From the NCBI RefSeq assembly GCF_000425305.1, contig NZ_AUDE01000001.1, positions 1 through 64,000 of the forward strand: 64,000 bases of DNA, in the 5' to 3' direction. Made by a program: the position numbers and the translations under genes. Below the pieces are notes generated by a model, which was given only the letters and a program-made list of their open reading frames with translations, searched no databases and was not told where the DNA came from. Positions 1,345 through 61,800 of the stretch are shown piece by piece. This stretch comes from Psychroserpens burtonensis DSM 12212. GTDB taxonomy: Bacteria > Bacteroidota > Bacteroidia > Flavobacteriales > Flavobacteriaceae. Every line of letters begins with the position of its first letter. Position 1 is the stretch's first letter.

Positions 1345-1488
1345 ATAACGAAAGGCTAATACCGTGTATAATTCATTGCTAGTTCTAGCCTACTTTGAAA
1401 TTCCTTCGGAATTTCTTCTGGTTCGTTTTAGTTTACTAATTTAGTTGCTAAAACACGCAACGAAATCATACACAACAACGTTAGCCAA
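1345..1488 (+). repeat. attC-like imperfect inverted repeat A
   Basis: The left arm (1354-1379, GGCTAA then GTGTATAATT then ATTGC) pairs with the right arm (1457-1486, GCAACG, ATCATACAC, then CGTTAGCC). The loop contains a perfect inner hairpin GAAATTCC-ttc-GGAATTTC at 1397-1415, which also carries one TTCCGAAG octamer. The right core GTTAGCC resembles the GTTRRRY core of integron attC sites in six of seven positions. It sits between the stop of one DUF6090 gene and the start of the next, about 30 bases before the next ATG, as in gene cassettes. Confidence 0.7.
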
Positions 1489-1510
1489 CATTTTGACAAA
1501 CCGCTAACCA

Positions 1511-2299
1511 ATGATAAACTTCTTTAGAAAAATACGCTACGACCTTATGGAAAAAAACAAAACTGGAAAGTATTTGAAATATGCTATTGGTGAAATTATT
1601 CTAGTCGTTATTGGAATTTTAATTGCACTTTCTATTAATAATTGGAATGAAAAGCGAAACAATTTAAAAAAGGGACAAACTATCTTAATTCAATTAAAAA
1701 AAGAATATAAATCCAATCTTCTCCAATTAGATGAAAAAATATTAATGAGATCTAAAATTGTTAGATCTTGCAAAGATATTTTAGATATAATTGATAATCC
1801 AATAAGTTTAAATCAGGACAGTTTATTTCAAAAAATAGCGACGCTAACATTAGACCCAACTTTTGATCCAGTTACTAACGATCTAATTAGTTCTGGTAAT
1901 CTTCGACTAATTAAAAATGAGGATTTGAAACAAAAACTGTCAAACTGGACTTCGGATATACTCGCATTGCAAGAAATGGAACTCCAATGGCAGAAAATGA
2001 CTCTTCAAATTAACTTTCCTTTTATAGTTAGACTAAATATTTATCGGGATATTGCTAATGTTCAATATAAAAATGAAACCGTACCTGTTTTTATACTTGA
2101 TAAAAGTCTTAACGGAAAATTGAATATTGGTAAATCTAAAAAAACCCCTAGTTTGGCGGAAGTACTAAACAATCCCGAACTCGAAAGTCTGGTTACGAAA
2201 GCAATAACTGATAATTATCTCAATAATCTTCAATCACACTCACTAAGGAATAAAATCAATGATATTATCAATCTAATTGACAAAGAGATTAAACGGTAA
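1511..2299 (+). CDS. DUF6090 family membrane protein, paralog 2
   Basis: A 262-residue DUF6090 protein. N-terminus MINFFRKIRYDLMEKNKTGK, membrane helix around residues 29-43 (IILVVIGILIALSI), then NNWNEKRNN. The soluble part includes LISSGNLRLIKNEDLK, a stretch that paralogs 1 and 4 also carry in similar form (NSGKLSILKNENL and NSGDIDLIEDKAL). Function unknown. The gene begins about 30 bases after repeat A and is followed directly by the left half of repeat B, whose right half has been lost at an IS junction. Confidence 0.85.
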   Translation: MINFFRKIRYDLMEKNKTGKYLKYAIGEIILVVIGILIALSINNWNEKRNNLKKGQTILIQLKKEYKSNLLQLDEKILMRSKIVRSCKDILDIIDNPISLNQDSLFQKIATLTLDPTFDPVTNDLISSGNLRLIKNEDLKQKLSNWTSDILALQEMELQWQKMTLQINFPFIVRLNIYRDIANVQYKNETVPVFILDKSLNGKLNIGKSKKTPSLAEVLNNPELESLVTKAITDNYLNNLQSHSLRNKINDIINLIDKEIKR

Positions 2300-2338
2300 A
2301 TAACGAAAGCACAATACCGTTGTGCTTCATTATGATTA
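2299..2338 (+). repeat. attC-like repeat B, left half only
   Basis: The start aaataacgaaagcacaa is shared with repeats A and F, including AACGAAAG and TACCG. Inside is a small hairpin GCACAA-taccg-TTGTGC. The right arm is absent: sequence switches at about 2338 into an IS3 orfB fragment on the other strand, so the IS junction or a deletion has removed it. Confidence 0.55.
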
Positions 2339-2447
2339 TTTACCTAAGCTTGGCTTGCGATAATAACTACTGTGAACCATTCCTACCATATCGATTATGC
2401 TAGTTTTACTGATTTTATATGTGTTAAAAATAGTATCCACTAAATCT
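2336..2447 (-). pseudogene. IS3-family orfB 5' fragment
   Basis: Read on the minus strand in the frame after orfA, this encodes RDLVDTIFNTYKISKTS followed by IIDMVGMVHSSYYRKPS and a stop. That is the N-terminal helical region typical of IS3 OrfB, just downstream of and overlapping orfA. Everything after about 37 residues is gone. The catalytic domain at 67-541 belongs to a similar element, but about 90 residues separating the two pieces are not present in the window. Confidence 0.7.
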
Positions 2448-3241: not shown

Positions 3242-3273
3242 TCCCACTTTTACGGGAAAAAATAATTACTCTA

Positions 3274-6006: not shown

Positions 6007-6075
6007 GTGTATAATAACCTTAATCCTCTCTTTTGTTCTTTATTAATTATTACTAAATTTAATGAATTGTAAACT

Positions 6076-12858: not shown

Positions 12859-13011
12859 ATGACACTTGGAGTTGCCTTATACTCTTTAGTTGGAGCTCAT
12901 TCAACTCGAATTATCGGGAAGCGTTTAGTTGATTTTTCCGAAGAAAAAAACCCAACCATACCAGCGATTCTTTATCTTCGTGAATTACTAAAAATAGTAC
13001 TACAGAAATAG
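12859..13011 (+). CDS. Small ORF, unknown (50 residues)
   Basis: ATG to TAG encodes MTLGVALYSLVGAHSTRI and ends in RELLKIVLQK. I do not recognise it. In-frame reading continues upstream of the ATG without a stop for some distance (HHKRSNQITSVDLVS), so it may be the remnant of a longer gene. It contains one TTCCGAAG octamer at 12936. It fills the gap between dusB and the SOUL gene. Confidence 0.3.
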   Translation: MTLGVALYSLVGAHSTRIIGKRLVDFSEEKNPTIPAILYLRELLKIVLQK

Positions 13012-14128: not shown

Positions 14129-15370
14129 CTAAAACTCAATATCCTTCTCAACCTCTGCATCACCACGTTTCACGATAACTTTAGTTTTATCTCCAGTATC
14201 AAATGTAGATAACACGCGCATATAACTCATCAAATCGATCACTAAACTATCACCGAGTTTCACAACAATATCTCCTTTTTTAAGTCCTGCTTTTTGCGCT
14301 GGTTTGTCTTCACTAATTCCGTCAATTCGCATGCCTTTTCCATCAAAAAGATAATCAGGAATCACACCTAAACCCACCTTAAAACGAGGCACCTCTTCAG
14401 TTTCATTTTTTGTTTTTCTAAACGGTAATTTACCATTATCATCTAAATCTGAAATGATATCAAATATATATGATGAAATGGTTTCCATCCCTTCGTAATT
14501 TAGCTTTTGATTGTCATCACTAGGTTTGTGATAATCCTCATGCTGTCCTGTAAAAAAGTGCAATACCGGAATGTCACTATTATAAAAAGAGGTATGATCA
14601 CTTGGTCCCACTCCAGATTCGTTTTGTATAATTTTAAAATTAGAATTATTGGCTTTTACAACCTGCTTTAAAATTGGCGATGTACCAACACCATAAACCG
14701 CTAATGTGCTATCTTGTTTTAATCGTCCAACCATATCCATATTAAGCATGAAATTAGCTTTTGATAAGTCTATAGTTGGGTTTTTCGTGAAGTAATTTGA
14801 GCCTAATAATCCCATTTCCTCACCAGAAAAAGCCATGAATAAATAATTATTCCCTTTGTTTGCAGACTTTAATTTTTGAGCAAGATTTAAAAGTACTGCC
14901 ACACCACTTGCGTTGTCATCTGCTCCATTATGAATTTCTTTAGTGTCACCTCTAAACAAAGACCCTTCTGCACCATACCCCAAATGATCATAGTGCGCTC
15001 CTATAATAATCGTGTTTTCTGCTTGGTTATCTAAAAAACCAATCACATTAGTTCCTGTAATTGTACTATCGCCATCCTTGATAATATAATTAACTTCTTG
15101 ATGTGGATCTGTTTTTGGCTTAAATGAAAATGTTTGTAAATAACCTTTTGTTCCTTCTGCTTTTAAGCCTAAATCCTCAAAACGTTCTGCTATATACTTT
15201 GCTGCGGCTTTCTCTCCATCAGTTCCTGTTTGACGACCTTCGAGTTTATCGTCTGCTAAAAAAGCAACGTCTTCTTTAATAGTTACAACATCAATTTTTT
15301 CTTCGGAATTTGTCTTACAAGCGGTTAAAACCGTCAAAAAAAGAACAATAATTAGGTGATTAATACGCAT
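14129..15370 (-). CDS. M28 family zinc aminopeptidase with C-terminal PDZ domain, lipoprotein
   Basis: A 413-residue exported peptidase. Lipoprotein signal with Cys at about 18 (LTVLTACK). The co-catalytic zinc site is complete: His126 in GAHYDHLG, Asp151 in NGADDNASG, Glu184-Glu185 in FSGEEMG, Asp212 in LNMDMVG and His281 in HEDYHKPSDD. A PDZ domain follows (about 330-413, IPDYLFDGKGMRIDGIS, GLKKGDIVVKLGD). It probably trims peptides in the periplasm or at the outer membrane. It is divergent from the PD40 lipoprotein gene with only 39 bases between starts. Confidence 0.92.
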   Translation of the reverse strand: MRINHLIIVLFLTVLTACKTNSEEKIDVVTIKEDVAFLADDKLEGRQTGTDGEKAAAKYIAERFEDLGLKAEGTKGYLQTFSFKPKTDPHQEVNYIIKDGDSTITGTNVIGFLDNQAENTIIIGAHYDHLGYGAEGSLFRGDTKEIHNGADDNASGVAVLLNLAQKLKSANKGNNYLFMAFSGEEMGLLGSNYFTKNPTIDLSKANFMLNMDMVGRLKQDSTLAVYGVGTSPILKQVVKANNSNFKIIQNESGVGPSDHTSFYNSDIPVLHFFTGQHEDYHKPSDDNQKLNYEGMETISSYIFDIISDLDDNGKLPFRKTKNETEEVPRFKVGLGVIPDYLFDGKGMRIDGISEDKPAQKAGLKKGDIVVKLGDSLVIDLMSYMRVLSTFDTGDKTKVIVKRGDAEVEKDIEF

Positions 15371-16827: not shown

Positions 16828-19245
16828 TTAGTTATTCACCTTATTTAAACGATCACGCTCATCTGTTTTAATGTTGCGCTCATTAGATTCTAATCGTGTG
16901 TTACCGAATTTATAACGGAAACCTAACTTTATATAACGCGTATCTACATCTGAAAAACCTCTGCTAAACTGGTTTTGATACCTTACGCTGGTTGTAGCAT
17001 CTTGCATATTAAACAAATCACTAACCGAAAGTGAAAGCACTCCTTTTTTCTTTAAGATGCTCTTAGATATTGCTAATTCTGAAAACAAACGATCTTCCAC
17101 AATTTGAAACCCCTGCAAATTCTGTCCGACCCATGTGAGCGTAAATGATGCATTAAGACTACTGTCTTTTAGAAACGTCCAATCATTTTGCAAAACAGAA
17201 TAATTAGACCAGAGGCTTTGATTTACAAAACCGTTACCAAAATCTGTTTCTTCTTCAATATTATAAAATGACGTTACCGCATAAATAGACCAACGGTCTG
17301 TGACATTAAAATAGGTTAGAAAGTCAAAACCGTATTCAACAGTCTTGTCAAAATTGACGCTAATATATTCTACCTCATTTGTTGTATTATTTTGTCTTGG
17401 AATCTCTGATATAGCGCCATCATAATTTTTATAATAAGCCTCAATAGTCAATAAATCACTAAATAATGTGGTTCCTATAACCGCATGGTCAGTAAAGGTT
17501 GGTACCAAATTAGGGTTTCCTGAAACGACATAATTTTCATTTAAAAAGAACCTAAATGGGTTCAAATCTGCATAGCCAGGACGCGCTATACTGCGTTTGT
17601 AATTAGCGTACACATTATAACGGTCGCTAATATTGTATTGTACACTCGCATTAGGAAACCACTCCAAATAGTCTTGTGTATTTATTTGAGTTGTAGATAA
17701 AGACACGCCCTCTATATTAGTTTGCTCAGCTCGCAGTCCTGCATTGAGACTCCATTTTTCAGTATTAGATGCGTAATTGGCATAAGCAGCATAAATACGT
17801 TCGTCATAATCAAAAGCATCTGAATTTAGATTGTCTATAGTTTCAGTTCCTGTATTGGGATCGACATCAAATTGACTGATATCACTTACCGTTTTTATAT
17901 TAGAAGTCTTTACACCTGCCTCAAACTCTGAACTATCATTGATGGGTAAACTATAGTCTAATTTTGCTGCAAATATTTGAGTGTCTTGGTTGGCGTTAGT
18001 ATTAAATGCAGACGCATTTATAAAATCGTTGTTGACATCAAAAAAATTGCTTAAAACGGCTTGATTTCTTTCATAATTATAAGTCGTAAAATGACCATTA
18101 AACGTTAATGAGCCTTTGGTAAGGCTATGCCTAAAATTAAGATCTACGCCTACATTATATTTATTATCACGAGATAAATTATCTGCTGTAAAACGCTCTA
18201 AAAAAGCGTTGTTTATATCTGTAATCAATGTATTATTATTGATACTGTATTTAAAGTAGGGTATATAAATCGTATTTGAGGAAAGGCTCAACGTATTGTT
18301 GTCATTGATAAAATAGTCAAAATTTGTGTTTAGACTGTGGGTTTCAGACCATGTGTTTCTATTAGTTAATGAACGCCAAGATTCATTTATAGCATTCGAA
18401 TTATCTAGAAAATTAACCATATCGTCACCACCTCTATTTATTTTATCTTTTGAATAGTTATAATTGACGTTAAAACTGATGTCCTTATTTTTAAAAAAAT
18501 GACTTGTTCCTAAATCATACCTTGGAAAAACACCTTGTGTAAAGTTAGAATTCACACTTCCTCGATACCCTGTAATCAAGTTTTTGCTCATTATGATATT
18601 TAAAACAACACCACTTTCTGCATCATATCGTGCTGAGGGATTTGTAATCACCTCAATAGATTTAATAGAATTTGCTGAAGACCCTTCTAATAATTGATTT
18701 AAATCTTCCGAAGATAAATTCACCTTTCTATCATTAATATATACCGTAGGATTAGAGTTTTTAACAGTAATCTCATCACCTAAAACCAAAACTCCTGGAG
18801 TGCTTTTGAGCACTTGAAGCATGTTACCTTCAACCAAAGCTGTCTTTTCTATATTGAAGATGAGCCTATCTGCCTCTCTTCTTAACGTAGGTTTTTTTAC
18901 TGTAATATTAATTTGATCTAAACTTTCAACAGCATCTTCTAATGTAATCGTTTTTAAATCTAAGCTCCCAGTAAGTACAACTTTTTGCTCATATGTTTGA
19001 TAGCCTATAAAACTTACTTTAAGAATATAAGTATTAGACTCGAGATTATTAATAATAAAAAACCCACTTGCATCTGTAGATGTTCCTTTTAGAACTTCGC
19101 TTTGATCGGTGTTAAAAACAATAATATTTGCAAATTCAATAGCCCTATCATGAGCATCTAATATTTTTCCAGAAATAGAATATTCTTGACCATAACCCAA
19201 GGAAGAATACAATAAAAATAAGGAGAAAATGTGGAGAAGTTTCAA
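16828..19245 (-). CDS. TonB-dependent receptor (carboxypeptidase-regulatory plug type)
   Basis: An 805-residue outer-membrane protein. Signal peptide to about residue 19 (LLYSSLGYGQ), a CarboxypepD-regulatory-like N-terminal domain (about 22-105, ISGKILDAHDRAIEFANI), a plug region with VLKSTPGVLVLGDEITVKN and PTVYINDRKV, then an outer-membrane beta-barrel ending in RYIKLGFRYKFGN before a short charged tail. No SusD partner is adjacent, so the substrate is unknown and glycan uptake is not implied. The only start that keeps the signal peptide is TTG at 19245. Confidence 0.88.
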   Translation of the reverse strand: MKLLHIFSLFLLYSSLGYGQEYSISGKILDAHDRAIEFANIIVFNTDQSEVLKGTSTDASGFFIINNLESNTYILKVSFIGYQTYEQKVVLTGSLDLKTITLEDAVESLDQINITVKKPTLRREADRLIFNIEKTALVEGNMLQVLKSTPGVLVLGDEITVKNSNPTVYINDRKVNLSSEDLNQLLEGSSANSIKSIEVITNPSARYDAESGVVLNIIMSKNLITGYRGSVNSNFTQGVFPRYDLGTSHFFKNKDISFNVNYNYSKDKINRGGDDMVNFLDNSNAINESWRSLTNRNTWSETHSLNTNFDYFINDNNTLSLSSNTIYIPYFKYSINNNTLITDINNAFLERFTADNLSRDNKYNVGVDLNFRHSLTKGSLTFNGHFTTYNYERNQAVLSNFFDVNNDFINASAFNTNANQDTQIFAAKLDYSLPINDSSEFEAGVKTSNIKTVSDISQFDVDPNTGTETIDNLNSDAFDYDERIYAAYANYASNTEKWSLNAGLRAEQTNIEGVSLSTTQINTQDYLEWFPNASVQYNISDRYNVYANYKRSIARPGYADLNPFRFFLNENYVVSGNPNLVPTFTDHAVIGTTLFSDLLTIEAYYKNYDGAISEIPRQNNTTNEVEYISVNFDKTVEYGFDFLTYFNVTDRWSIYAVTSFYNIEEETDFGNGFVNQSLWSNYSVLQNDWTFLKDSSLNASFTLTWVGQNLQGFQIVEDRLFSELAISKSILKKKGVLSLSVSDLFNMQDATTSVRYQNQFSRGFSDVDTRYIKLGFRYKFGNTRLESNERNIKTDERDRLNKVNN

Positions 19246-21229: not shown

Positions 21230-21528
21230 GCTGAAAAACACACGAGACTTTTTGGAATAAATTGATACCAATGTATAGGTCTACCTTTTACACCCATGAG
21301 CCTTGTAATCTTAGCTTCATTTTTAGTTTTTGTACTAAGAGATTGAGCAAATCTAAATCATGGTTTTTCTGAGAGTTTAGAAAAAGAAACTGTACAGCAA
21401 TCAATAGCAAAATTTATGGACAACATGAGGTCTTTTATTTCGCAGTGAGTATATCTTTATTCCGAAGAAAAATTTAAATCACCTATTATAAAATAGAGCT
21501 CATACGCTCGTCGTAATTTTTAATCCTC

Positions 21529-23510: not shown

Positions 23511-24359
23511 TTGACCAACAAAAAATTTAAAACCATAGGTATTGGAGTTGCATTTTCTCCAAACCTAAAAGCAAACCTTTACGAAGCTGCACGACTATCG
23601 CTCTCTTTTAAGAGTAAGTTGGTGCTTATTCATGTTGGTGAAAAATCTCGTAAAAAAAAGGAACAAATTTTAGACATTATACAACCGTTTCTAAAAGACA
23701 ACCTCAGCTATGATCTCGTTTTTAAGACTGGTAATCCTGTAGATGTGATTTTATCGGTTTCCGAAGAAAAAAAAGTGGACTTGCTCATTTTGGGAGCACT
23801 TCAAAAAGAGAATTTTGTACAGTATTACCTAGGAACCATTGCTAGAAAAATCACGAGGCAAGCAAATTGCTCTATTTTATTACTTATTAAACCTTCTGTA
23901 GAACGCATACCTTGTAAACACATTGTTGTTAACGGGCTCGACAACCCGAAAACCAAACAAACTATTACCACAGCGTATTATTTGTCTCACAAACTACAAT
24001 CTAAAAAAATTACAATTGTTGAAGAAATCACAAAGCAAGAAATCGCTGTGAGTGTAGATGATGATAAATCACTTCGAAAATATGCCATCATTAAAGAGCG
24101 TCTAAAAATGCGTGAAGACTCTCGTATAAACTCTATTATTAACGAAATCCCTGATGACTATAAGTCTAATATTGTTACAAAAACACAATCTATCTTTGGA
24201 ACACGAGGCTACAGTATTGGTCACTATGCTCAATTTGTTAGAGCAGATTTATTAGTGATGAATGCGCCAACAAAAACCAGCTTTTGGGATCGTCTTTTCC
24301 CACATGATATCGAATATATTTTATCTGAGTTGCCAACAGACGTTTTAATCATTCAATGA
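23511..24359 (+). CDS. Universal stress protein, tandem UspA domains
   Basis: A 282-residue cytoplasmic protein with two Usp folds. First half: IGIGVAFSPNLKANLYEAARLS, then VDLLILGALQ and a GTIARKITRQANCSILLLI nucleotide-loop-like end; second half ends YILSELPTDVLIIQ. TTG at 23511 is the only start that keeps the first beta strand. The stop overlaps the ATG of the SulP gene by four bases (ATGA), implying translational coupling and a regulatory link with the transporter. Confidence 0.85.
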   Translation: MTNKKFKTIGIGVAFSPNLKANLYEAARLSLSFKSKLVLIHVGEKSRKKKEQILDIIQPFLKDNLSYDLVFKTGNPVDVILSVSEEKKVDLLILGALQKENFVQYYLGTIARKITRQANCSILLLIKPSVERIPCKHIVVNGLDNPKTKQTITTAYYLSHKLQSKKITIVEEITKQEIAVSVDDDKSLRKYAIIKERLKMREDSRINSIINEIPDDYKSNIVTKTQSIFGTRGYSIGHYAQFVRADLLVMNAPTKTSFWDRLFPHDIEYILSELPTDVLIIQ

Positions 24360-28015: not shown

Positions 28016-29629
28016 ATGAAGTACTTATTTAAACCATTTTTATACACCGTATTCTTATCAGCCATTTTATTTGGTTGTAGCGCAACATCAGGAGTGCTTT
28101 CTACTCCAATAGAAAATATTGACACCTCTCCTTTAAAGGAAGCAGAGCTAACTGAAAGTGAAAAAAATACGTGGTCTCATTTAGATCTAGTAAAAGATAC
28201 CATTCCTGGAATGAGTGTCGATAAAGCATACAGTGAGATTGTTAAGAATAAAAAAGGAAAAACAGTTATTGTTGCGGTTATTGATAGCGGAACAGATATA
28301 GATCATGAAGATTTAGATGATGTCCTTTGGACGAATAAAAACGAAGTTCCTAATAACGGAAAAGATGATGACAACAATGGTTACATTGATGATATTCACG
28401 GTTGGAATTTTCTTGGTGATGGGTACGATGAGCAATTAGAATACGTTAGAATTCTAGCCGCAGGAGACAAAAACACTCCAAGATATGCTGAAGCAGAAGC
28501 ATTGTATACTAGCGAATATCAAAAATACGTAGGTTACAAAACTCAATATGAGCAAATTTCTCAGCAGGTTAATGCAGCAGATGAGATTTTAACCAAACAC
28601 TTTGGCAAATCTGACTATAACAAAAAAGAGGTTACTGCTATCAAAACCGAAGATGAAAAACTAGGCCAAGCGGTGCAAGTAGCTCAATTTATTTATAGCA
28701 ATAATATGAAGTCCTTGGCAGACGCTAAGAAAGAGTTTAAAAATGGACTGGAAAGCATCAACGATAGACTAAATGCCAATCTTAATAAAGAGCTAAAAGG
28801 ACGTACAACAGGAGATAATCCTAATGATTTAAACGATAAAGTAGGTTATGGTAACAATAATCCTAGACCCTCTAAAAAAACAGAAAGTCATGGAACTCAC
28901 GTTACTGGCATTATCGCTGCAGAGCGCAACAATAATAAAGGAATGAATGGTGTTGCAAATAATGTTCAAATTATGGCAATTCGCGCTGTACCTAATGGAG
29001 ATGAATATGACAAGGACATTGCTCTTGCAATTCGCTATGCTGCAGATAATGGTGCCAAAGTCATCAATGGTAGTTTTGGTAAGTCATTCTCACCAAATAG
29101 CCAATGGGTAAGAGACGCTATTAAATATGCTGCAGATAAAGATGTTCTTTTTGTCCATGCTGCTGGTAATGACAGTGAGGATATTGATATCGCTTCTAAT
29201 TTCCCAAATGACGCTGTTGGTACAGGTCCAGAAATTTCAGATAATGTAGTTACTGTAGGGTCGTTAACTAGCACCTATGGTTCATCAATGGTCTCTAGTT
29301 TTTCTAACTTCGGAAAAGTCAATGTTGACGTTTTTGCTCCTGGAAGTGATATTTATTCTACAATGCCAGAAAATGAATACGAGATGAATAGTGGTACCTC
29401 AATGGCTTCACCAAATGTTGCAGGAGTTGCAGCTTTAATTCGCTCACAATATCCAAGCTTAACGGCATCGCAAGTAAAGAAGGTTTTAATGGACTCTGGT
29501 TTACCAATTAAAGCAAAAGTTACAATAGGAGAAAACAAAGACGTAAAATCGCTCAACGAGATTTCTACATCTGGTAGAATAGTTAACGCTTATAACGCGT
29601 TGATTATAGCATCACGAATGGCAAACTAA
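28016..29629 (+). CDS. S8 (subtilisin-like) serine protease, lipoprotein
   Basis: A 537-residue exported protease. Lipobox LFGCSA (Cys21). Catalytic triad: Asp90 in VAVIDSGTDIDHEDL, His292 in SHGTHVTG, Ser462 in SGTSMASPNVAG. About 200 residues separate Asp and His, far more than in subtilisin (32 vs 64), because of a charged helical insertion (about 130-270) that may act as an internal regulator. Followed by the M1 peptidase gene 26 bases later, so the two likely form a periplasmic or surface protein-degradation operon. Confidence 0.9.
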   Translation: MKYLFKPFLYTVFLSAILFGCSATSGVLSTPIENIDTSPLKEAELTESEKNTWSHLDLVKDTIPGMSVDKAYSEIVKNKKGKTVIVAVIDSGTDIDHEDLDDVLWTNKNEVPNNGKDDDNNGYIDDIHGWNFLGDGYDEQLEYVRILAAGDKNTPRYAEAEALYTSEYQKYVGYKTQYEQISQQVNAADEILTKHFGKSDYNKKEVTAIKTEDEKLGQAVQVAQFIYSNNMKSLADAKKEFKNGLESINDRLNANLNKELKGRTTGDNPNDLNDKVGYGNNNPRPSKKTESHGTHVTGIIAAERNNNKGMNGVANNVQIMAIRAVPNGDEYDKDIALAIRYAADNGAKVINGSFGKSFSPNSQWVRDAIKYAADKDVLFVHAAGNDSEDIDIASNFPNDAVGTGPEISDNVVTVGSLTSTYGSSMVSSFSNFGKVNVDVFAPGSDIYSTMPENEYEMNSGTSMASPNVAGVAALIRSQYPSLTASQVKKVLMDSGLPIKAKVTIGENKDVKSLNEISTSGRIVNAYNALIIASRMAN

Positions 29630-29655
29630 AAGGAATTCCGAAGAAAAAAATAAAT

Positions 29656-35107: not shown

Positions 35108-35485
35108 ATGTCATTTTCATATTCTAAAAAAGAAAAGCTTAAAAGCCAAAAACTCATAGAACAGCTGTTTTCCGAAGGGAAATCGGTTAGTGCTTACCCA
35201 TTGCGCATGGTGTATCTAAAGTCAAATTTTGATGAGGATACACAATTTAAAACAGGAGTTACAGTAAGTAAACGTAATTTAAAAAAAGCAGTGGATCGAA
35301 ATCGCATCAAACGCTTATTGAGGGAAGCCTACCGCCTTAATAAAAGTGAGTATTTTAACAACATTTCATCATGTTATACGTTAATGATTTTGTACATTGG
35401 TAAGGATAAAACGGATTTTGATTCCGTAAACAAAAAAATGAAACAACTTTTAGAGACTTTTTCTAAAAAAGTGTCGCCTGAATAA
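35108..35485 (+). CDS. rnpA: Ribonuclease P protein component
   Basis: A 125-residue RnpA, the protein cofactor of the RNase P ribozyme for tRNA 5' maturation. The RNR signature is at 64-66 inside KKAVDRNRIKRLLREAYR, and the N-terminal YSKKEKLKSQKLIEQLFSEGKS is typical for Bacteroidota. rpmH is not upstream here, as is usual outside other phyla. A TTCCGAAG octamer lies in the coding sequence at 35170. Confidence 0.92.
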   Translation: MSFSYSKKEKLKSQKLIEQLFSEGKSVSAYPLRMVYLKSNFDEDTQFKTGVTVSKRNLKKAVDRNRIKRLLREAYRLNKSEYFNNISSCYTLMILYIGKDKTDFDSVNKKMKQLLETFSKKVSPE

Positions 35486-38699: not shown

Positions 38700-39617
38700 T
38701 TAATCCTGAACAATCACATCTTTATCTCCACATTTTCCATACTCTGGTTGGATATTAACATGATTGATTCCGAAGTTATAAAATACCATCTCTTCTACAT
38801 CATGTAATATTACATCAAATTGAGATAAAGTAATATTCTCCTCAAAATCTATATGTGCTTCTAAATGAATTTCATCTTCATTGAGTTGCCAAATATGAAC
38901 ATGATGTACATTTTTTATAGCTCCTATTTGTTGAATATCTTTAACAATATCCTCTACTAGAATTTGATCAGGAGTAAACAACATCAATACTTTAAAGGAA
39001 TCTTTTAATAAATCATAACCCATATAAATAAGATATAAGGCTATTGCAAAAGTTAAGACGCTATCCACCCAAAACATCTGATAATACTTCATCAATAATC
39101 CACCAATAAAAACTGCAACACTTGCCATCATATCTGTTAACAGGTGAAGATAAGCACTTTTTATATTCATATTAGTTTCGCTATCTTTTTTAAGTAAGAG
39201 CACACTAAAACCGTTACCTAAAATAGCTACTAAAGATAGCCAAATTACTACGTTAGACTCAATCTCTTGCGGATTTTGAAAACGTTTCACAGCTTCGATA
39301 ATTAGTAAAATAGCAACTATAATTAAGGTCGCAGCATTAATAAAGGCTGCTAAAATTTCGGCACGTTTATAACCGAATGTTTTTTGAAGAGATGCTTTAC
39401 GTTTTGAGAGTCGATTAGCAATATAACTAATAATTAAAGAGATCACATCACTAAAATTATGGAGCGCATCACTTAATAATGATAAACTACCTGAAAGTAA
39501 TCCACCAATAACTTGTGCCACAGTAATAACTATATTTAAAAAGATAGAAATGATAAGATTTCTTCCCTTTAAATCGTCATGAGAATGGGAATGATTGTGA
39601 GAATGTGAGTTACCCAT
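38700..39617 (-). CDS. Cation diffusion facilitator (ZitB/CzcD-like metal exporter)
   Basis: A 305-residue inner-membrane antiporter for Zn2+ or similar ions. His-rich N-terminus (MGNSHSHNHSHSHDD), six helices, the intramembrane site SLLSDALHNFSDVISL (HxxxD variant HNFSD) in helix 2 and LHLLTDMMASV in helix 5, then a cytoplasmic domain (HVHIWQLNEDEIHLEAHI). It precedes rpiB-strand neighbours in the same direction but likely has its own role in metal homeostasis. Confidence 0.9.
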   Translation of the reverse strand: MGNSHSHNHSHSHDDLKGRNLIISIFLNIVITVAQVIGGLLSGSLSLLSDALHNFSDVISLIISYIANRLSKRKASLQKTFGYKRAEILAAFINAATLIIVAILLIIEAVKRFQNPQEIESNVVIWLSLVAILGNGFSVLLLKKDSETNMNIKSAYLHLLTDMMASVAVFIGGLLMKYYQMFWVDSVLTFAIALYLIYMGYDLLKDSFKVLMLFTPDQILVEDIVKDIQQIGAIKNVHHVHIWQLNEDEIHLEAHIDFEENITLSQFDVILHDVEEMVFYNFGINHVNIQPEYGKCGDKDVIVQD

Positions 39618-40075: not shown

Positions 40076-40836
40076 AATTTGGTATGTTTTTTAAAACCTT
40101 AAAGTTAATAATTGCTTACAAATAAACCACAGTAAGACATAGATAGTTATTCATAACATTTATGTTTGATGACGATGTCGCTTTCTTCGGAAATAGGCGT
40201 TGTTAACATCTATGGTGATCTGTATTCATTACTTGTTCATATCTTATCTTAAGTACTTAAAAGTTTTCTTAGGATTATCCAGTAATTTTCCCAATCAAAA
40301 ATAGAACCTTAGTAACCTAAAAAGTTAACCTTTTTTTTTGGTAAAGTTATCACCATTAAATTTGACCATGCTAACATAAAATTTAAAAATACTTATCATG
40401 TTTATGTTGTCAATAGAGGTTATCAACAGCTGTTAATAGCTTTATAAATTAGCTTTACAATCAGCCTTTTAAATGTTAACTTAATGTTAACTATATATTA
40501 AGTAATTGTGATAAGTCACATATCAAAGTAAAGTATAATAAAGTTATAGCGACTATTAACACACTATAATAAGCACCATTTTATTTTTTAAATTTTAAAA
40601 GAAAACTGATGTTATGTATATATGTGTTGATAAGTGTGAAATTTTATTTTTTTCAGTTTACTAAGCCTAAACAAAAATCAATTCATGTGTACGTTTTAAC
40701 TTCCGAAACAAAAATAGTTTAAAACGGTTAAGAGTGTTTTATAAAATTTGAATGAGAACTAAACGCTTTAAAAATTTGATTATAAAGTAGTTAAATAAAC
40801 TGTTATCCTTTATATTTGTAAGAAAATAATACAGTT
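40076..40836. other. Long AT-rich intergenic region, possible replication-origin-like features
   Basis: 761 bases without a gene between divergent rpiB and the FG-GAP gene. It holds DnaA-box-like words one base off TTATNCACA (TTATTCATA 40147-40155 +, TTATCAACA 40420-40428 +, TTATCAACA 40625-40633 on the minus strand), four GTTAAC palindromes (40202, 40324, 40474, 40484 approx.), an A/T-rich core, and one TTCCGAAG octamer at 40185. There is no dnaA nearby. This might be oriC, a strong regulatory region or plain AT-rich spacer. Confidence 0.3.
40811..40818 (+). promoter_or_regulatory. -7 promoter box of the FG-GAP gene
   Basis: TATATTTG fits TAnnTTTG 18 bases before the ATG. A matching -33 TTG is not seen at the right distance. 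Confidence 0.45.
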
Positions 40837-44963: not shown

Positions 44964-45176
44964 TTATTTTGGCGTTACCTAAAGGTCAGGCTGTTCGTTA
45001 TATCTTTTGGTAAAAAACCAAAAGGATGCCACTTCCATCCTTAACGCAGATGGTGAAAATTAAAATTATTTATTGTTAAAATAAATAAACGTGATGTTGA
45101 ACTTAATTCTGCATCACGTATTTTTATAGCTGTAACATTTCCGAAGAAAATAACACCAATAACAAAACCATTGATC

Positions 45177-47835: not shown

Positions 47836-48198
47836 TTACTTTTTTCGTCTTTCGGTCATTTTTATTGTGACGCTTTCAACGTCTCCACCTATTGGAGGAT
47901 TTAATTTACTAACACTGACAGTTGCTTTTTTTACTAATTTTTCTTCGGAAAAGATTCGTGTCAACATACGTTTTGCAACCGTTTCTAGGAGTTTTGAGGG
48001 TTTAGACATTTCTTCTTTTGCTATTTTATTTAGCAATACATAATCTACGGTATCGCTTAATTTATCTGTTTTTACCGACGTTTTTAAATCTGCTTTAACC
48101 TCAATATCTACACGGTAGTCACTACCAATTTTTGTTTCTTCTTTTAAACAGCCGTGATGTGCAAAAACTCTTATATTTTCAACTTTTATTATTCCCAA
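47836..48198 (-). CDS. folB: Dihydroneopterin aldolase
   Basis: A 120-residue FolB of folate biosynthesis, converting dihydroneopterin to hydroxymethyl-dihydropterin and glycolaldehyde. VENIRVFAHHGCLKEET, then SDTVDYVLLNKIAKEEM, SKLLETVAKRML with the catalytic Glu region and LNPPIGGDVESVTIKM. Normal length. Divergent from glnS with promoters on both sides. Confidence 0.92.
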   Translation of the reverse strand: MGIIKVENIRVFAHHGCLKEETKIGSDYRVDIEVKADLKTSVKTDKLSDTVDYVLLNKIAKEEMSKPSKLLETVAKRMLTRIFSEEKLVKKATVSVSKLNPPIGGDVESVTIKMTERRKK

Positions 48199-51105: not shown

Positions 51106-52263
51106 TTGATACACTACAAACTATACAATTCTGTAAACGATTTACCTGAGTCTTGGGATCTGCTTCCTAGTCAAGACCTTTTTTTAAAACGTCCGTTTTT
51201 AAAAGCGCTAGAAAATTCTAGCCCAAGTAATATATCGACCTATTTTATCGGTGTTTTTTCTTCGGAAATTTTAGTGGGTATTACCATTATTCAACGGGTT
51301 AAAATGTACGTAGATGATGTCTTTAGAAAAACGTCTAATCCTTTTTTTAAGCGCTGCGGAAAAGTGCTGATCTCAAAGATTGTTAAAGGAAATGCACTTA
51401 TCGTCGGTAATTTAATGCAGACAGGTCAGCATGGGCTTTACTTTAATGCAGAGCACATAACACAAGATCGGTTTCTAGATACCGTTTCAGAAGGTTTAAA
51501 AGCATTATCAAAACAAATCAAAACCAGGCATAATAAAAAAATACGTATTATTGGTTTTAAGGACTATTTTGAAGATGATCCAATTCATGGGAGTCAGGCC
51601 TTTTTCCGAAGAGAAAAATTATACAAAGCACAAGTGCAACCCAATATGATTTTTGAGGTAAACACGAATTGGAAGTCACCTCAAGACTACGTCTCTACTT
51701 TTAATAAAAAATATCGTAGACGCTATAAAACAGCACTAAAAAAGAGCGATACTATTCAACGCAAAGAACTTTTTCTTAATGAGGTATTATCGCTTAGTGG
51801 TCAATTGTATGAATTATATGAGAACGTGTCTGATAACGCAGGAATTAACTCATTCAAATTACATAAAAAGCACTTTTATAATTTAAAACTGGAGCTTAAA
51901 GAGGACTTTAAATTGTTTGGTTATTTTATAGATCATCAGCTCGTAGGCTTCTATACTCTAATTTTAAATCACAGCAAGTTAGAGACTTATTTTTTAGGTT
52001 ATAATCAAGCGCTTCAGCACAAACATCAAATGTATCTCAATATGTTATTTGATATGGCATCGTTTGGGATTGAACACCAATATAAACAGGTTATTTTTGC
52101 AAGAACAGCCATGGAAATTAAGAGTTCTGTTGGAGCAAAACCACATCATATGTCTTTGTATTTAAAACACACTAATAGTGTGATTGCAAATACGATTTTA
52201 AAGGCTGTCGTTAAGTACGCTAATCCCGTTAGAGATTGGGATGAACGACATCCGTTTTCATAA
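51106..52263 (+). CDS. BioF2/FemAB-like GNAT acyltransferase
   Basis: A 385-residue protein that I assign to the FemAB/BioF2-like GNAT group: N-terminal LFLKRPFLKALENSSP, a central NKKYRRRYKTALKKS and a C-terminal GNAT half with FKLFGYFIDHQLVGFYTL and YFLGYN..LQHKHQMYLNMLF, then EIKSSVGAKP. Such enzymes transfer aminoacyl or acyl groups, often in cell-envelope synthesis. The TTG at 51106 is the only sensible start. Two TTCCGAAG octamers lie in the coding sequence (51260, 51604). Confidence 0.72.
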   Translation: MIHYKLYNSVNDLPESWDLLPSQDLFLKRPFLKALENSSPSNISTYFIGVFSSEILVGITIIQRVKMYVDDVFRKTSNPFFKRCGKVLISKIVKGNALIVGNLMQTGQHGLYFNAEHITQDRFLDTVSEGLKALSKQIKTRHNKKIRIIGFKDYFEDDPIHGSQAFFRREKLYKAQVQPNMIFEVNTNWKSPQDYVSTFNKKYRRRYKTALKKSDTIQRKELFLNEVLSLSGQLYELYENVSDNAGINSFKLHKKHFYNLKLELKEDFKLFGYFIDHQLVGFYTLILNHSKLETYFLGYNQALQHKHQMYLNMLFDMASFGIEHQYKQVIFARTAMEIKSSVGAKPHHMSLYLKHTNSVIANTILKAVVKYANPVRDWDERHPFS

Positions 52264-54822: not shown

Positions 54823-56400
54823 TTATATCGAAGCAATCAACCCATCAATACGTTTCAAAGTTTCCACCTTCCCAATCATATAAATAATATCAAACACATC
54901 AGGACCTTGTAAGGCTCCAACAAGGGCTAAACGTAATGGCATCATCACTTTTCCGAAGCTAATCTCATTAGAGGTAATCCATTCTTTGACGGTGTTTTGT
55001 ACGTTTTCTGAAGTAAAATCGTCTACGCTATTAATGAGGTCTTTGACCTTAGTTAAAACATCAGCTGTGTCGTCTTTAATCGATTTTTTAGTTGCTTTTT
55101 CATCGTAAGATAAAGGCGCCGTAAAGAAGAAATGGCTCAAGTCCCAAAAATCACTCACAAATGTGGCACGCTCTTTAACTAGGGCAACGACCATTTCTAT
55201 ATAATTAATATCGATGTCATTGCGAGGAGTTTGCGACGTGGCAATCTCATCTTGAGATTCTTCGCTAGCACTCTGAATGACATCACGCTTTTTATCAACA
55301 ATAGTTTTAAACTGTGTAGCTAAACCATTATCATCCTGCTCCTGCATATAATGGTGATTAAACCACTTAATTTTATCTGGATCAAAACGTGCTCCAGCCT
55401 TATTGACGCGTTCTAATTCAAACGCTGTAATCAATTCATCTAAATTAAAAATCTCTTGTTCTGTTCCTGGATTCCAGCCTAAAAACGATAAGAAATTTAT
55501 CATAGCGTCTGCAAAATAGCCTTCTTCTTTATAACCTTTAGACACATCAGCAGTTTTTGGATCTGACCATTCTAAAGGAAACACAGGAAACCCTAATTTA
55601 TCGCCATCACGCTTGCTTAACTTTCCTTTTCCTGTTGGTTTTAGAATTAATGGAAGGTGCGCAAATTCTGGAGCGTCCCAACCAAAAGCAGCATATAATT
55701 GATAGTGTAATGCTAACGATGGTAACCACTCTTCACCACGAATCACGTGAGAGATTTCCATTAAATGGTCGTCCACAATATTGGCAAGGTGGTAGGTTGG
55801 CATTCCGTCACTTTTGAATAGAACTTTATCGTCCAAAACATTAGTGTCAATTTTTATATCACCACGAATACTATCTTTTAAATGCAAGGTTTCGTCTTGA
55901 GGTGATTTGAACCGAATCACATAATCTTCACCTGCATCTAATTTTGCTTTGGTTTCATCTTCAGTTAGCGATAACGAATTACTTAATTTGAGTCTGTTGT
56001 GCCAGTTGTAGATAAACGTTTTTCCATTAGCTTCGTGATCTTTTCTATGAAAGTCAAGAGTTTCAGATGTATCAAAAGCGTAGTAGGCATGACCTTTTTC
56101 TATCAACTCATCTGCATATTGTTTGTATAAATGTTTACGCTCGCTTTGACGGTAAGGACCAAATTTTTCGTTTTTTCCAGGACCTTCATCAAAAGGAATT
56201 CCACACCAGTTAAGCGACTCTACAATATAATCTTCTGCACCTTCAACATAACGGTTTTGATCAGTATCTTCTATACGAAGCACAAACGTACCCTTGTGTT
56301 TTTTAGCAAATAGATAATTAAAAAGCGCTGTTCTAACACCTCCAATATGTAAAGGTCCTGTTGGGCTTGGTGCAAAACGCACTCTAACGGGTTTGGTCAT
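54823..56400 (-). CDS. gltX: Glutamyl-tRNA synthetase with in-frame repeat insert
   Basis: A 525-residue class I synthetase that charges tRNA-Glu. HIGH motif in RFAPSPTGPLHIGGVRTALF, KMSKS equivalent in GKGKLSKRDGDKLG, and the catalytic VIRGEEWLPS segment. Residues 374-395 (VIQSASEESQDEIATSQTPR plus ND) are encoded by a 66-base palindromic intergenic repeat inserted in frame in the anticodon-binding half. Without it the protein is about 503 residues, the usual length. The insert probably lies in a tolerated surface loop. Confidence 0.94.
   Translation of the reverse strand: MTKPVRVRFAPSPTGPLHIGGVRTALFNYLFAKKHKGTFVLRIEDTDQNRYVEGAEDYIVESLNWCGIPFDEGPGKNEKFGPYRQSERKHLYKQYADELIEKGHAYYAFDTSETLDFHRKDHEANGKTFIYNWHNRLKLSNSLSLTEDETKAKLDAGEDYVIRFKSPQDETLHLKDSIRGDIKIDTNVLDDKVLFKSDGMPTYHLANIVDDHLMEISHVIRGEEWLPSLALHYQLYAAFGWDAPEFAHLPLILKPTGKGKLSKRDGDKLGFPVFPLEWSDPKTADVSKGYKEEGYFADAMINFLSFLGWNPGTEQEIFNLDELITAFELERVNKAGARFDPDKIKWFNHHYMQEQDDNGLATQFKTIVDKKRDVIQSASEESQDEIATSQTPRNDIDINYIEMVVALVKERATFVSDFWDLSHFFFTAPLSYDEKATKKSIKDDTADVLTKVKDLINSVDDFTSENVQNTVKEWITSNEISFGKVMMPLRLALVGALQGPDVFDIIYMIGKVETLKRIDGLIASI
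55216..55281 (-). repeat. Dispersed palindromic element inside gltX
   Basis: Read on the minus strand it begins GTCATTCAGAGTGCTAGCGA and ends CAAACTCCTCGCAATGAC. The first half equals the arm of the inverted repeat at 54739. GTCATT and AATGAC are its terminal inverted repeats. It is exactly 22 codons long and open in this frame. Confidence 0.8.
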
Positions 56401-57369: not shown

Positions 57370-58409
57370 ATTATTTTCATCTCCTTAGGCACACGTTTAT
57401 TCATAATCCTAAACCATAACGGAGGCAGCATCGCTAAAACCATAGAGGTTGGATAACCAAAAGGCATTTGCGGACTCTCATCATGGCAATCTAAAACTTG
57501 ATATTTCTTTGATGATTTAAAATGGTGATCGCTATGACGTGTGAGTTCGTACAATACAATTCTACCAATCACGTGGTTGGAATTCCAAGAGTGCATTTCT
57601 TTAACGCGCTCATATCTACCAGATTTTGTTTTTAAACGCAGCAATCCGTAATGTTCAATATAGTTGACTGATTCCAAGAGTAAAACCCCAATAATACCTG
57701 CGGAAATAGAAAACAACAATCCAATATGTCCAAAGACTAAGAAAACACTAGTTAAATAACTTAGCTGTAAAACCGTATACCAAAACATATCGTTGTTTAC
57801 AGAAAGGAAACTTTGATTGTTAGTCTTTAATAGTTTATTCTGAATTTTCCAAGCGCCAACATATTGTCTAAAAATTGAAGTGAACCAAAAGGAATAGACC
57901 GTTTGATTATATCTTGCTGTGGCTGGATCTTCTTGCGTTGCTGCGTTCAAGTGATGACCAAAATTATGTTCGATAAAAAAGTGCATGTATAAAGACGGTA
58001 ATAATAAAGCTTTACCAAGAAAACGTTCGTTTGTGGCTTGTCTGTGACCTAACTCATGAGCAACATTGATTCCGTTTACACCTAAAACGATGCCTACGGA
58101 AATAATCATACCAACCAATTCATAAGTTTCAATTACAGTGTTTGCTGCTTCATATATTCCGAAGAAAACTAACCCATAAACAATGGGGATGTTGAGATAG
58201 AGCAACCAGTCAAATACCTTTTTTTTGAGTCTGTTATCAACGTCTTCCGAAGTTAAATTTTTAGTGTCAACCGGGAAAATAAGTTCTAGTAAAGGAATGA
58301 TAACGAATGCAAAAACAGGTGTGAGAAACACCAATGAGCCTTTAAAATAAACACTAATAAAAGCGACTAAGGGGATTGAAAATGCAGCAAGATATTTGAG
58401 GTCTTTCAT
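57366..58409 (-). CDS. AlkB-family membrane diiron hydroxylase (alkane 1-monooxygenase-like)
   Basis: A 347-residue integral membrane enzyme with about six helices. The histidine boxes of AlkB-type hydroxylases are all present: NVAHELGHR (about 120), FIEHNFGHHLNAATQEDPAT (about 147), NYIEHYGLLR (about 250) and LTRHSDHHFKSSKKYQ (about 290). Members hydroxylate the terminal carbon of medium-chain alkanes or fatty acyl chains with rubredoxin as electron donor; no rubredoxin gene is adjacent. The downstream RES gene overlaps it by four bases. An TTCCCTT-gaa-AAGGGAA hairpin lies upstream at 58424-58441. Confidence 0.88.
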   Translation of the reverse strand: MKDLKYLAAFSIPLVAFISVYFKGSLVFLTPVFAFVIIPLLELIFPVDTKNLTSEDVDNRLKKKVFDWLLYLNIPIVYGLVFFGIYEAANTVIETYELVGMIISVGIVLGVNGINVAHELGHRQATNERFLGKALLLPSLYMHFFIEHNFGHHLNAATQEDPATARYNQTVYSFWFTSIFRQYVGAWKIQNKLLKTNNQSFLSVNNDMFWYTVLQLSYLTSVFLVFGHIGLLFSISAGIIGVLLLESVNYIEHYGLLRLKTKSGRYERVKEMHSWNSNHVIGRIVLYELTRHSDHHFKSSKKYQVLDCHDESPQMPFGYPTSMVLAMLPPLWFRIMNKRVPKEMKII

Positions 58410-58459
58410 TGACTTTTAATTCATTCCCTTGAAAAAGGGAAACTGTTAATAGTTTTAAT

Positions 58460-58735
58460 TTAAAATCGAATAGGTTCTTTCTTTGCATACCTCACTCTCA
58501 AAATATACACTTTGGTGTCTTCAATGAGGTAAGTGATTGTATACTTGTGTTTTTCGTAAGTTCTAACGTTACCCTGATTATTATTTTTGAGCTGATCTAT
58601 TTTATAGATTTCTGCGTTGGTTTTAAGTGTTTTGTTGCAGAGTTGGTCCAAACTATATTTTTGACCATTCTAAAATCATTTCTCTTACCGCATCGTGAGA
58701 GCGCAAGCTATTGGAATTTAATTTTAGTTTAAAGA
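58460..58735 (-). pseudogene. Decayed toxin-antitoxin locus (RelE/ParE-type toxin, antitoxin 3' end)
   Basis: On the minus strand an open stretch ends in NSLRSHDAVREMILEWSKI, like the C-terminus of a small antitoxin, but has no start. Overlapping its stop is MVKNIVWTNSATKHLK, a RelE/ParE-type toxin N-terminus. The toxin end continues in another frame as TLKTNAEIYKIDQLKNNNQG and YTITYLIEDTKVYILRVRYA. The middle of the toxin is missing and the frame is shifted, so neither protein is intact. The open part 58460-58651 (63 residues) is often annotated as a complete toxin, which I doubt. Confidence 0.65.
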
Positions 58736-58871
58736 TAACTTAAAATTAGGACTAATTAAAGGCCTACCGTAATCTGAAAATTAACGCAGCTCCTCGAAAT
58801 TAACAGAATCTTACCAAATTTAGGCAATTACACATAAAAATAAATTCTATATTAGTGAGTTATTTAAGGGT

Positions 58872-61800
58872 ATGGCAGGAAATTTTAAAAATATTCAAGG
58901 CAAATTAGAGCAATTTATCAAACGTTATTACACGAATGAATTGCTTAAAGGCGTGATTTTATTTTTCGCAATAGGATTGCTCTATCTAATAGGCACTTTA
59001 CTTGTTGAATATTTTTTATGGTTGAGTCCAGTATCAAGAACCCTTTTATTCTGGGTATTTATTGCAGTAGAATTAGCCTTGTTTGCTAAGTTTATCATAT
59101 TCCCAATTGCCAAATTATTTAAACTCCAAAAAGGAATTGATTACGAAGACGCATCCCAAATTATAGGGAACCATTTCCCTGAAGTGAATGATAAGTTATT
59201 GAATGTTCTTCAACTCAATCAAAACAGTTCACAGTCTGAACTTTTAGAAGCGAGTATTGAGCAGAAATCGTTAGAATTAAACCCAATTCCGTTTAAATTA
59301 GCAGTAAACTTCAATAAAAACACCAAATATTTAAAATATGCTGCGATTCCGATAGCTATTTTATTACTGTCTTTTATTACAGGAAAAATTAATTGGTTTA
59401 GTGATAGCTATGAGCGCGTTGTAAATTATAATACTGCTTATGAGCCACCAGCACCATTTCAGTTTTTTGTAATTAATGAGAATTTGAAAGCGATAGAGAA
59501 TAAAGATTTCAAAGTCACAGTAAATACTGCTGGTGATATCATTCCAGAGAACGCACAAATCCATTTTAACGAGCAATCGTTTTTTATGCAGCAAACTGCT
59601 CCAGGACAATTTGAGTATGTGTTTTCTCAACCTAAAGAAGCTTTGAACTTCAGTTTGTCTGCGAATGATGTCGTATCCAAGAATTATACTTTAGATATTA
59701 TAAAAGTACCTACACTTGTTAATTTTGAAATGGTATTGGATTATCCTGAATACACTAAGAAGAAAGATGAGGTTTTGAAGAGTACAGGGAATTCTACAAT
59801 TCCAGAAGGGACCAACGTGACCTGGAAGGTGAATACTAAATCTACAGATGAGGTGGTGTTTTATTCTAAAGACACGATTGCCTTTGAGCCTATTTCCGAA
59901 GGAAAATTTGAAGCTTCAAAACGTGTGTTTAGTAATACGGATTATAGTATTAGTACGAGTAACGCAGCATTAAAGGATTACGAGAATTTAGCCTTTTCAA
60001 TCAATGTCATTAAGGATAACTATCCAGAAATGAATGTAAAGATGGAAACCGATTCTTTAGACAGCCAATCACTTTTTTTTTTAGGTCAAGTCAGTGATGA
60101 TTACGGTTTAAGAAAATTACAGATGGTGTATTATCCAAGTAAAAACCCACAAGACAAGTCTTACGAAGTGATGAACGTGTCAAAATCTAATTTTGATGAG
60201 TTTGTAAGCGCGTTCCCAAATCAACTAAACCTTGAAGACGGTGTTGATTACGAATTGTATTTCCAAGTTTTTGATAATGATGTGCTTCATAAGTATAAAA
60301 GCTCAAAAAGTTCGGTGTTCAGCTATAGAAAGTTAACTAAAGATGAAGAGGAACAAAAGCAATTGGATGAACAAAACGAAACCATTAAAGATATAAGTAA
60401 AACCTTTGATAGGTTAAAAGAGCAAGATAAAGAGCTCAAAGAAATTTCTAAAACTCAAAAAGAAAAGGAGGAACTTAATTTTAATGATAAAAAGAAATTC
60501 GAAAATTTTATTAAGCGTCAAAAGGAACAAGAACAACTGATGAAAAGCTTCAACAAGAAATTGAAGGAGAATATAAAAGAGTTTCAAAACGAAGATAAAG
60601 AGCAAGAGAAAGACAAATTTAAAGAAGACCTGCAAAAGCGTTTAGAGGAAAACGAAGAACAGCTTAAAAAAGACGAGAAACTTTTGGATGAGTTGGAGAA
60701 GATGAAGGATAAAATCAACAAGGAAGAGTTTACACAAAAATTAGAAGAATTAGCAAAGCAGAATAAGAATAAAGAGAAAAGTTTGAAACAACTACTCGAG
60801 TTGACAAAGCGTTTCTATGTTGCCAAAAAGGCTGAGAAGCTGATGAAAGATTTGGAGAAATTGGCTGAAGAGCAAGAGCAGCTTTCCGAAGAAAACAAAG
60901 ACAAGAATACAAAAGAAGCTCAGGAAAAACTCAACGAAAAGTTTGAAGATTTCCAGAAACAAATGGACACTCTCGATAAGGAAAATAAGGCACTTAAAAA
61001 ACCAATGGATTTACCTCAAGACAAACCAACAGAGGAATCTATAAAACAGGATCAAAAAGAGGCTACTGAAGCTTTAGAGGAGCAAAAGGAGAAAGAGAAA
61101 GAAGCGGAGGAGAAACAAGAAGAAGGAGAACCTCAAGAAAAGCAGGAGGAACAAGAGCCACAGGAAAGTCCGCAAGGTCCGCAACAAAAAGCTAAGAAGA
61201 AACAAAAGCAAGCGGCTAAGAAAATGAAAGAAATGACTCAACAGATGGCTCAAGCCATGTCAATGGGTGGTGGAGAACAAATGCAAGAGGATATCGATGT
61301 ATTACGTCAAATTTTAGATAATTTAGTTTTATTCTCTTTTGATCAAGAGTATTTGATGAACGATTTTAAAAAGATTGAAGTCAATCATAATGAATACGGT
61401 AAGTTTTTACGCAAGCAAAATGACTTACGAGAGCATTTTGAGCATATTGATGATAGTTTATTTGCATTATCATTAAGACAGCCTGCTATTTCAGAGCAAG
61501 TGAATTCACAAATCACAGATGTCTTTTATAACATGGATAAAACATTAGCCCAATTGTCTGAAAATCAATTATATCAAGGTGTTTCTTCACAGCAGTATAC
61601 CATTACAGCGACCAATGAGTTAGCAAGTTTTTTGAGCGATGTACTTGACAATATGAATCAAGAGATGAACCCGTCTATGGGTCAAGGGCAAGGACAAGGA
61701 GAACAACTTCCAGATATTATTATGAGCCAAGAGGAGCTTAATAAAAAAATGGAAGAAGGTATGAAGAAGGGAGAAAAAGGAAAAAAGCCTAAAGAAGGTG

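Follow-up and report, generated by a model that had tools for sequence, protein, structure and literature searches.

A candidate DNA uptake sequence in a subset of the Flavobacteriaceae

The octamer TTCCGAAG occurs 25 times in the 64,000-nucleotide stretch of the Psychroserpens burtonensis DSM 12212 genome analyzed here (the window; contig NZ_AUDE01000001.1, positions 1 to 64,000). It is the core of a longer element, and on balance we think that this element probably serves as a DNA uptake (signal) sequence in a subset of the Flavobacteriaceae. An earlier note on the window had proposed an uptake or Chi-type word. The uptake half of that proposal fits our data best, while the Chi half is weakened by the absence of replication-strand bias and by an enrichment exceeding that of Chi in Escherichia coli. 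To our knowledge, sequence-specific DNA uptake is known from two proteobacterial families. If the uptake reading is right, the element would add a third case that arose independently, in a phylum whose competence machinery is different and poorly known, and would show that uptake preference evolves repeatedly.

As far as the literature we searched extends, this is the first uptake sequence proposed in Bacteroidota, and it occurs in cells that mostly lack a type IV pilus motor. Among the papers listed by that search, in which subscription journals were thinly covered, none, judged mostly by title, gave an account of TTCCGAAG, of an uptake word or of a Chi word in Flavobacteriaceae or Bacteroidetes. 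We put at just short of an even chance the wider proposal that this is the first uptake sequence outside the lineages of the Pasteurellaceae and Neisseriaceae, that its receptor is something other than a type IV pilus, and that it has been gained or lost many times within one family and favors the DNA of kin at sea. Were it a Chi word instead, it would, we believe, be the first for a Bacteroidota AddAB. Under either reading, a specific, testable word results.

Abundance, shape and conservation of the element

Recounting the window recovered all 25 copies reported earlier, 17 on the forward and 8 on the reverse strand; 23 of the listed positions were exact and the remaining two were each 10 off. 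The expectation of one or two copies given previously also held, as 100 dinucleotide shuffles averaged 1.44 copies, with a maximum of 5. The 17:8 strand skew is confined to the window, being 68:55 over 344 kb of the same contig and 509:551 across the whole genome (G000; 3.98 Mb in 68 contigs). As a control, we used TTCCGAAG read backwards (the reversed word): genome-wide, the octamer totals 1,060 copies, compared to 173 (79 + 94) for the reversed word. Counted on both strands, the octamer lies far above low-order Markov expectation, as the 344 kb contain 123 copies versus 4.5 (order 2) or 7.0 (order 1) expected (z = 56), and no other octamer exceeds z = 11 there, apart from those overlapping TTCCGAAG. 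Models of order 4 and 5 expect 18 and 56 copies, but such models already hold pieces of the word. Enrichment over the order-2 model was 27-, 40- and 48-fold in three congeners, and TTCCGAAG ranked first among octamers in 13 of 14 motif-rich sets, the sole exception being one 20-kb Altibacter locus holding four copies. The congener G006 carries 309 copies in 500 kb, or one per 1.6 kb.

We examined where copies fall relative to open reading frames (ORFs), which were called mechanically. The octamer is denser outside ORFs than within them (0.465 versus 0.345 per kb in G000, 0.816 versus 0.593 in G006), and genic copies lie on the same or the opposite strand as the gene at ratios of 56:50 (G000) and 121:142 (G006). 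Frames encoding Ser-Glu and Phe-Gly are common among genic copies, while those giving CGA or CGG (Arg) are avoided (3 of 106 in G000, 20 of 263 in G006). Spacing along the chromosome is near random, with coefficients of variation of 0.96 and 0.95 in G000 and G006. These data bear out the earlier statement that copies occupy different codon phases and also lie between genes, and extend it to both gene strands. Since copies occur outside ORFs as well as within them, and on both gene strands, we infer that selection or drive acts on the DNA itself, with protein coding merely filtering the copies. When the 344 kb was compared with 500 kb of one congener, density was 0.422 per kb in aligned and 0.236 per kb in unaligned DNA; because the congener was covered for these 500 kb only, unaligned DNA is not equivalent to accessory DNA.

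The conserved unit extends beyond the octamer. T stands at position -1 in 63% of the 123 copies, and each of the six positions following the core is A in 62-80%, compared to a background of 33%. In the window, 12 of the 25 copies continue as TTCCGAAGAAAA, matching the earlier estimate of about half. G006 and G015, two congeners, show the same A tail and T at -1, and other genera, with GC contents of up to 45%, show them in weaker form; in the smallest samples (8 copies from Aequorivita, 13 from UBA3611) no clear tail is seen. One core position is tolerant, as G006 contains 98 copies of TTCCGCAG (6.4 expected) and 80 of TTCCGTAG (7.1 expected). The fraction of A after the core of these two variants is 0.53 and 0.50 in G006 (background 0.33), 0.45 and 0.49 in G015, and 0.43 and 0.37 in G000 (19 and 13 copies, respectively). 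Seven variants at other core positions, of 21 possible, lack such a tail in G006 (A fraction 0.21-0.42). The full element is T-TTCCG(A>C,T)AG-AAAAAA, longer than the octamer. We set aside a hairpin or terminator formed by TTTC-CGAA-GAAA, as the pairing partner of an invariant T is A in only 64% of copies and copies lie within genes. We also discarded TTCGGAAG as an enriched word of its own, since its apparent excess comes from overlap with C-TTCCGAAG on the opposite strand.

Copies are kept in place mainly among motif-rich species. G000 and G015 align over 226.7 kb, with 80.3% identity. Of 93 G000 copies in this alignment, 60 are unchanged in G015, compared to 14.5% of 4,871 octamers matched in composition. 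Around the shared copies, position -1 is 97% identical, the tail columns 88%, and the flanks 83% and 81%. In a further comparison, G006 keeps 8 of 10 copies and an Arcticiflavibacter locus (L032) 8 of 9, while the intermediate relatives L031, L033 and L038 keep 2 of 8, 2 of 7 and 2 of 7. Five motif-poor relatives (L034 to L037 and L039, with 0-1 copy per 22 kb) keep none in 31 comparisons, compared to 7-9% of matched words; as the relatives share one 20-kb region, the 31 comparisons represent few sites, counted repeatedly.

To follow replication strand, we sampled two complete motif-rich chromosomes, G006 (25 stretches of 20 kb) and G251, from another genus (20 stretches), placing origin and terminus by cumulative GC skew in G006. 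Leading- and lagging-strand copies are balanced in both, at 157:152 in G006 and 89:85 in G251. Our yardstick was Chi in a 100-kb sample of E. coli K-12, with replichores assigned from the known layout of that chromosome: 32 copies were found versus 8.8 expected (3.6-fold), with a leading:lagging ratio of 21:11 that is not significant on its own (p = 0.11).

Distribution across the family

We surveyed 299 Flavobacteriaceae genomes, scoring each by the ratio of motif to reversed word. The reversed word is a rough control: it occurs 14 times in the 344 kb of G000, about three times the order-2 expectation of 4.5 for the motif, so that a ratio near 0.3 represents the unenriched level for G000. The median ratio was 0.71; 36 genomes exceeded 2 and 10 exceeded 5. 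Within the genus of the window (g1), copy number ranged from 278 (G020) to 2,174 (G006). Outside the family, 23 genomes of the same order reached a ratio of at most 1.8, leaving out one single-copy genome without control copies. In 80 named loci, the word was dense in Arcticiflavibacter, Ulvibacter, Aequorivita, Salinimicrobium and UBA3611; in Aquimarina, most Winogradskyella and many others it stayed close to chance. The rich or poor state requires four changes on the tree of a candidate outer-membrane CarboxypepD-domain protein (the barrel; 24 genomes) and three on that of AddB (21 genomes). With gains and losses inside a single family, and copy numbers of 278 to 2,174 inside a single genus, these genomes offer natural replicates for finding a receptor.

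We found no substitute word in 100 kb of the motif-poor congener G020, where no other octamer exceeds z = 9. When we pooled motif-poor sequence from Winogradskyella (222 kb), Aquimarina (177 kb), Flavobacterium (153 kb) and 19 other loci (394 kb), the top octamers reached z = 13-17, values that are inflated because the loci are orthologous around one gene and share conserved sequence; as a test for a substitute word, the pooled set is therefore weak. A related word, TTCTGAAG, is enriched 3.4- to 6.6-fold in g8, g32 and g76 and was also seen in g57. It has no clear A tail in g76, g32 or g8, where TTCAGAAG is raised as well (1.9- to 3.5-fold); TTCTGAAG may be a dialect, a separate word or a product of local composition.

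Proposed uptake, competence genes and alternative explanations

A model that would accommodate these observations is that a DNA receptor at the cell surface or in the periplasm recognizes and binds the element in double-stranded form, favoring its import, after which one strand would pass ComEC and recombine into the chromosome. Repeated biased import would let copies and near-copies accumulate in either orientation, at any site where the encoded protein can bear them, and would also hold copies at their sites. With loss of competence or of the receptor's preference, copies would decay. Uptake, receptor and drive are all inferences; what the sequences show is the element with its extent and strand neutrality, its conservation in place among motif-rich species, its patchy occurrence and the lack of strong enrichment in genomes without ComEC.

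The nearest parallel is the uptake signal sequence (USS) of Haemophilus influenzae and other Pasteurellaceae, which has a short asymmetric core, a neighboring A/T-rich tract, a copy every 1-3 kb, both orientations and enriched near-matches. The flavobacterial element shares the asymmetric core, the A tract, the density, both orientations and the near-matches. It differs in the core itself, in having a single A-tract straight after the core, and in residing in Bacteroidota rather than Gammaproteobacteria; moreover, no type IV pilus motor was found in G000, and its role in uptake is proposed from sequence. A type IV pilus machine with a specific minor pilin is part of known uptake-sequence systems. 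The DNA uptake sequence (DUS) of Neisseriaceae is family-wide, varies between species and is among the most over-represented words of its genomes (PMC3630211). The flavobacterial word is also a family-level, species-variable word that ranks at the top in its genomes. However, Neisseriaceae dialects differ in their letters, while the flavobacterial word is mostly present or absent, with drift at -1 and the related TTCTGAAG beside it in g76, g32 and g57. The DUS is read by the minor pilin ComP, while we have no ComP candidate for the flavobacterial system, in which pilins were not searched.

Other parallels come from within the order. Transformation in Riemerella requires an outer-membrane CarboxypepD-domain protein and a DUF5689 protein (PMC8459023). 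The earlier note had suggested a search for com genes, and G000 does possess ComEC together with likely homologues of both Riemerella proteins. The latter, the barrel and its DUF5689 partner, are encoded by adjacent genes (contig C12, L147:6352-10674) and adjoined by a gene for an Exo_endo_phos_3 nuclease (the trio spans L147:5147-10674). In each of 24 genomes examined, rich and poor, the stretch surrounding DUF5689 contained relatives of the whole trio. A preference for its own DNA is documented in Riemerella columbina, so that self-preference exists in the order; no word has been established there, and the published k-mer counts list A/T-rich words only (PMC7965970).

ComEC is present in 287 of the 299 genomes. 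All 12 that lack it have ratios of at most 0.74, while 138 of the 287 with ComEC lie above 0.75 (Fisher p = 5e-4; rank test p = 0.005). The 0.75 cut was set after the data were seen; with the cut at 1, the association has p = 0.013. In genus g48, G073 lacks ComEC, a barrel orthologue and DUF5689 and has a ratio of 0.44, compared to 2.4 for its congener G265.

Several results weigh against the uptake reading. The ComEC association is not significant when the cut is placed at a ratio of 2 (0 of 12 versus 36 of 287, p = 0.21), and the ComEC-less genomes are mostly small, so that requiring at least 2.5 Mb leaves four (Fisher p = 0.06, rank test p = 0.046). Under the same size cut, barrel loss showed no association with the motif across the 299 genomes. 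Most motif-poor genomes retain ComEC, DUF5689 and the barrel, which were found in 287 of 299, 70 of 72 and 274 of 299 genomes overall, so that possession of the machinery is no predictor of the motif. Conversely, the complete genome G300 (g106) lacks a barrel orthologue and DUF5689, yet is motif-rich, with a ratio of 3.2. Within g1, barrel identity, judged by eye, is unrelated to motif abundance. No residue separates all rich from all poor genomes in column scans of AddB (21 genomes), AddA (19), or the barrel, DUF5689 protein and nuclease (24 each), and trees, column scans and presence revealed no clear covariation of the motif with barrel, DUF5689 or nuclease. Lastly, the type IV pilus motor (the type IV pilus/type II secretion ATPase, T2SSE) has no match above cut-off in G000, with pilins not searched; it exceeds the cut-off in 11 of 45 genomes, and full-length matches come from 7 of the 25 rich genomes and 3 of the 20 poor ones.

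G300 keeps ComEC and carries 830 copies, and its congener G131, with barrel and DUF5689, carries 1,228. The barrels of G002, G009 and G020 are only 59-61% identical to that of G000, while those of the other congeners searched are 74-86% identical, a pattern resembling replacement by another allele; such a replacement would appear unlinked to the motif, as G009 is motif-rich. The column scans did give partial associations, phylogeny not being accounted for; at column 429 of DUF5689, for example, all 13 rich genomes but 3 of 11 poor ones have Gly.

The alternative that we take most seriously is a Chi-type word, at which an AddAB-type helicase-nuclease would attenuate and load RecA, marking the chromosome as self during double-strand break repair. 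Like the E. coli Chi (GCTGGTGG) and the AddAB Chi of Firmicutes, TTCCGAAG is short, asymmetric and over-represented; its octamer length would suit, and an AddAB that switches its word could underlie the patchiness. We assigned AddA and AddB by PDDEXK domain, size and adjacency only. A PDDEXK_1 match was present in all 45 genomes tested (at least two in 39), and an AddB relative in 297 of 299, the exceptions being G084 (ratio 2.55) and G236 (1.04). With an AddB relative in nearly every genome, whether rich or poor, we keep Chi as a serious rival, although we consider it unlikely. A leading-strand bias is usual for Chi in E. coli and several other species, while Chi of some species has no strong bias; TTCCGAAG has none, compared to the 21:11 of K-12. 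Its 27- to 48-fold enrichment is far stronger than the 3.6-fold obtained for K-12 Chi with the same model, and an A-tract of about 6 bp forms part of the element. Moreover, no other octamer exceeds z = 9 in the 100 kb of G020, the words of up to z = 17 in the pooled poor clades being inflated by orthology, and G084 is motif-rich without an AddB match, albeit as a 93% complete draft. What most favors uptake over Chi is the combination of balanced strands, the A-tract, the density in G006, the tailed near-matches and loss of the word in relatives that retain an AddB relative.

We regard as rather improbable that TTCCGAAG is a high-copy site for a protein that organizes the chromosome or recognizes self (a nucleoid protein, for instance, or a defense system for which the word marks self), with no role in uptake. 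An A-tract beside a fixed core would suit a protein that binds double-stranded DNA, and placement is near random and indifferent to genes. However, no such protein was identified among the families named in this analysis, to which the search was confined, and this explanation does not predict the scarcity of the word across entire clades and in every one of the 12 genomes without ComEC. The remaining two explanations can be ruled out. An abundant, asymmetric octamer could be a chromosome-segregation polarity word, such as an FtsK-orienting polar sequence (KOPS) or another architecture imparting sequence (AIMS). AIMS are defined by leading-strand abundance that rises toward the terminus (PMC5993296), and the balanced strands of G006 and G251 exclude this. 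The frequent Ser-Glu and Phe-Gly frames might suggest that codon usage, codon-pair usage or base composition generates the word, and the earlier note had named codon-pair usage as a possible full explanation. Such an origin fails to account for the higher density outside ORFs, for copies in both gene orientations, for conservation at orthologous sites far above that of matched words, or for the excess over the order-2 model.

Copies and neighboring features in the window

The coordinates of all copies are collected in the table. The earlier remark that the first 12.9 kb holds a single copy is correct, with about five expected at the mean density of the window; this boundary was picked post hoc.

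Copies of the TTCCGAAG core in the window, with positions counted from its first nucleotide
Position	Strand	A tail	Remark
1404..1411	-		sole copy of first 12.9 kb
12936..12943	+	yes	
15301..15308	-	yes	
18706..18713	+		18716 in the earlier note
21460..21467	+	yes	inter-ORF
23759..23766	+	yes	
29308..29315	-		
29636..29643	+	yes	inter-ORF
29705..29712	-	yes	
33744..33751	-		
33974..33981	+		
35170..35177	+		
38768..38775	+		
40185..40192	-		between ORFs of at least 100 aa
42426..42433	+	yes	
45139..45146	+	yes	between ORFs of at least 100 aa
47008..47015	+		
47943..47950	-	yes	
51260..51267	-	yes	
51604..51611	+		
54951..54958	+		
58157..58164	+	yes	
58245..58252	+		
59894..59901	+		
60884..60891	+	yes	60894 in the earlier note

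Ten proteins encoded in the window were searched. They include LepA, RNase R, Sulfate_transp domains, a TonB-type receptor and a type IX sorting domain, and are consistent with Flavobacteriaceae; the closest named relative of the RNase R is from Psychroserpens sp. SPM9 (91%). Positions 594-8144, which carry one TTCCGAAG copy, contain four paralogous DUF6090 genes (594-1343, 1511-2299, 6366-7115 and 7428-8144) flanking a gene for an EF-G-family GTPase of 663 aa (3488-5479), and a search of this stretch with defense models gave no match. Further along, the palindrome CGCTAGCG occurs twice, at 54750 and 54785, 35 bp apart, with the inverted flanks TCATTCAGAG and CTCTGAATGA.

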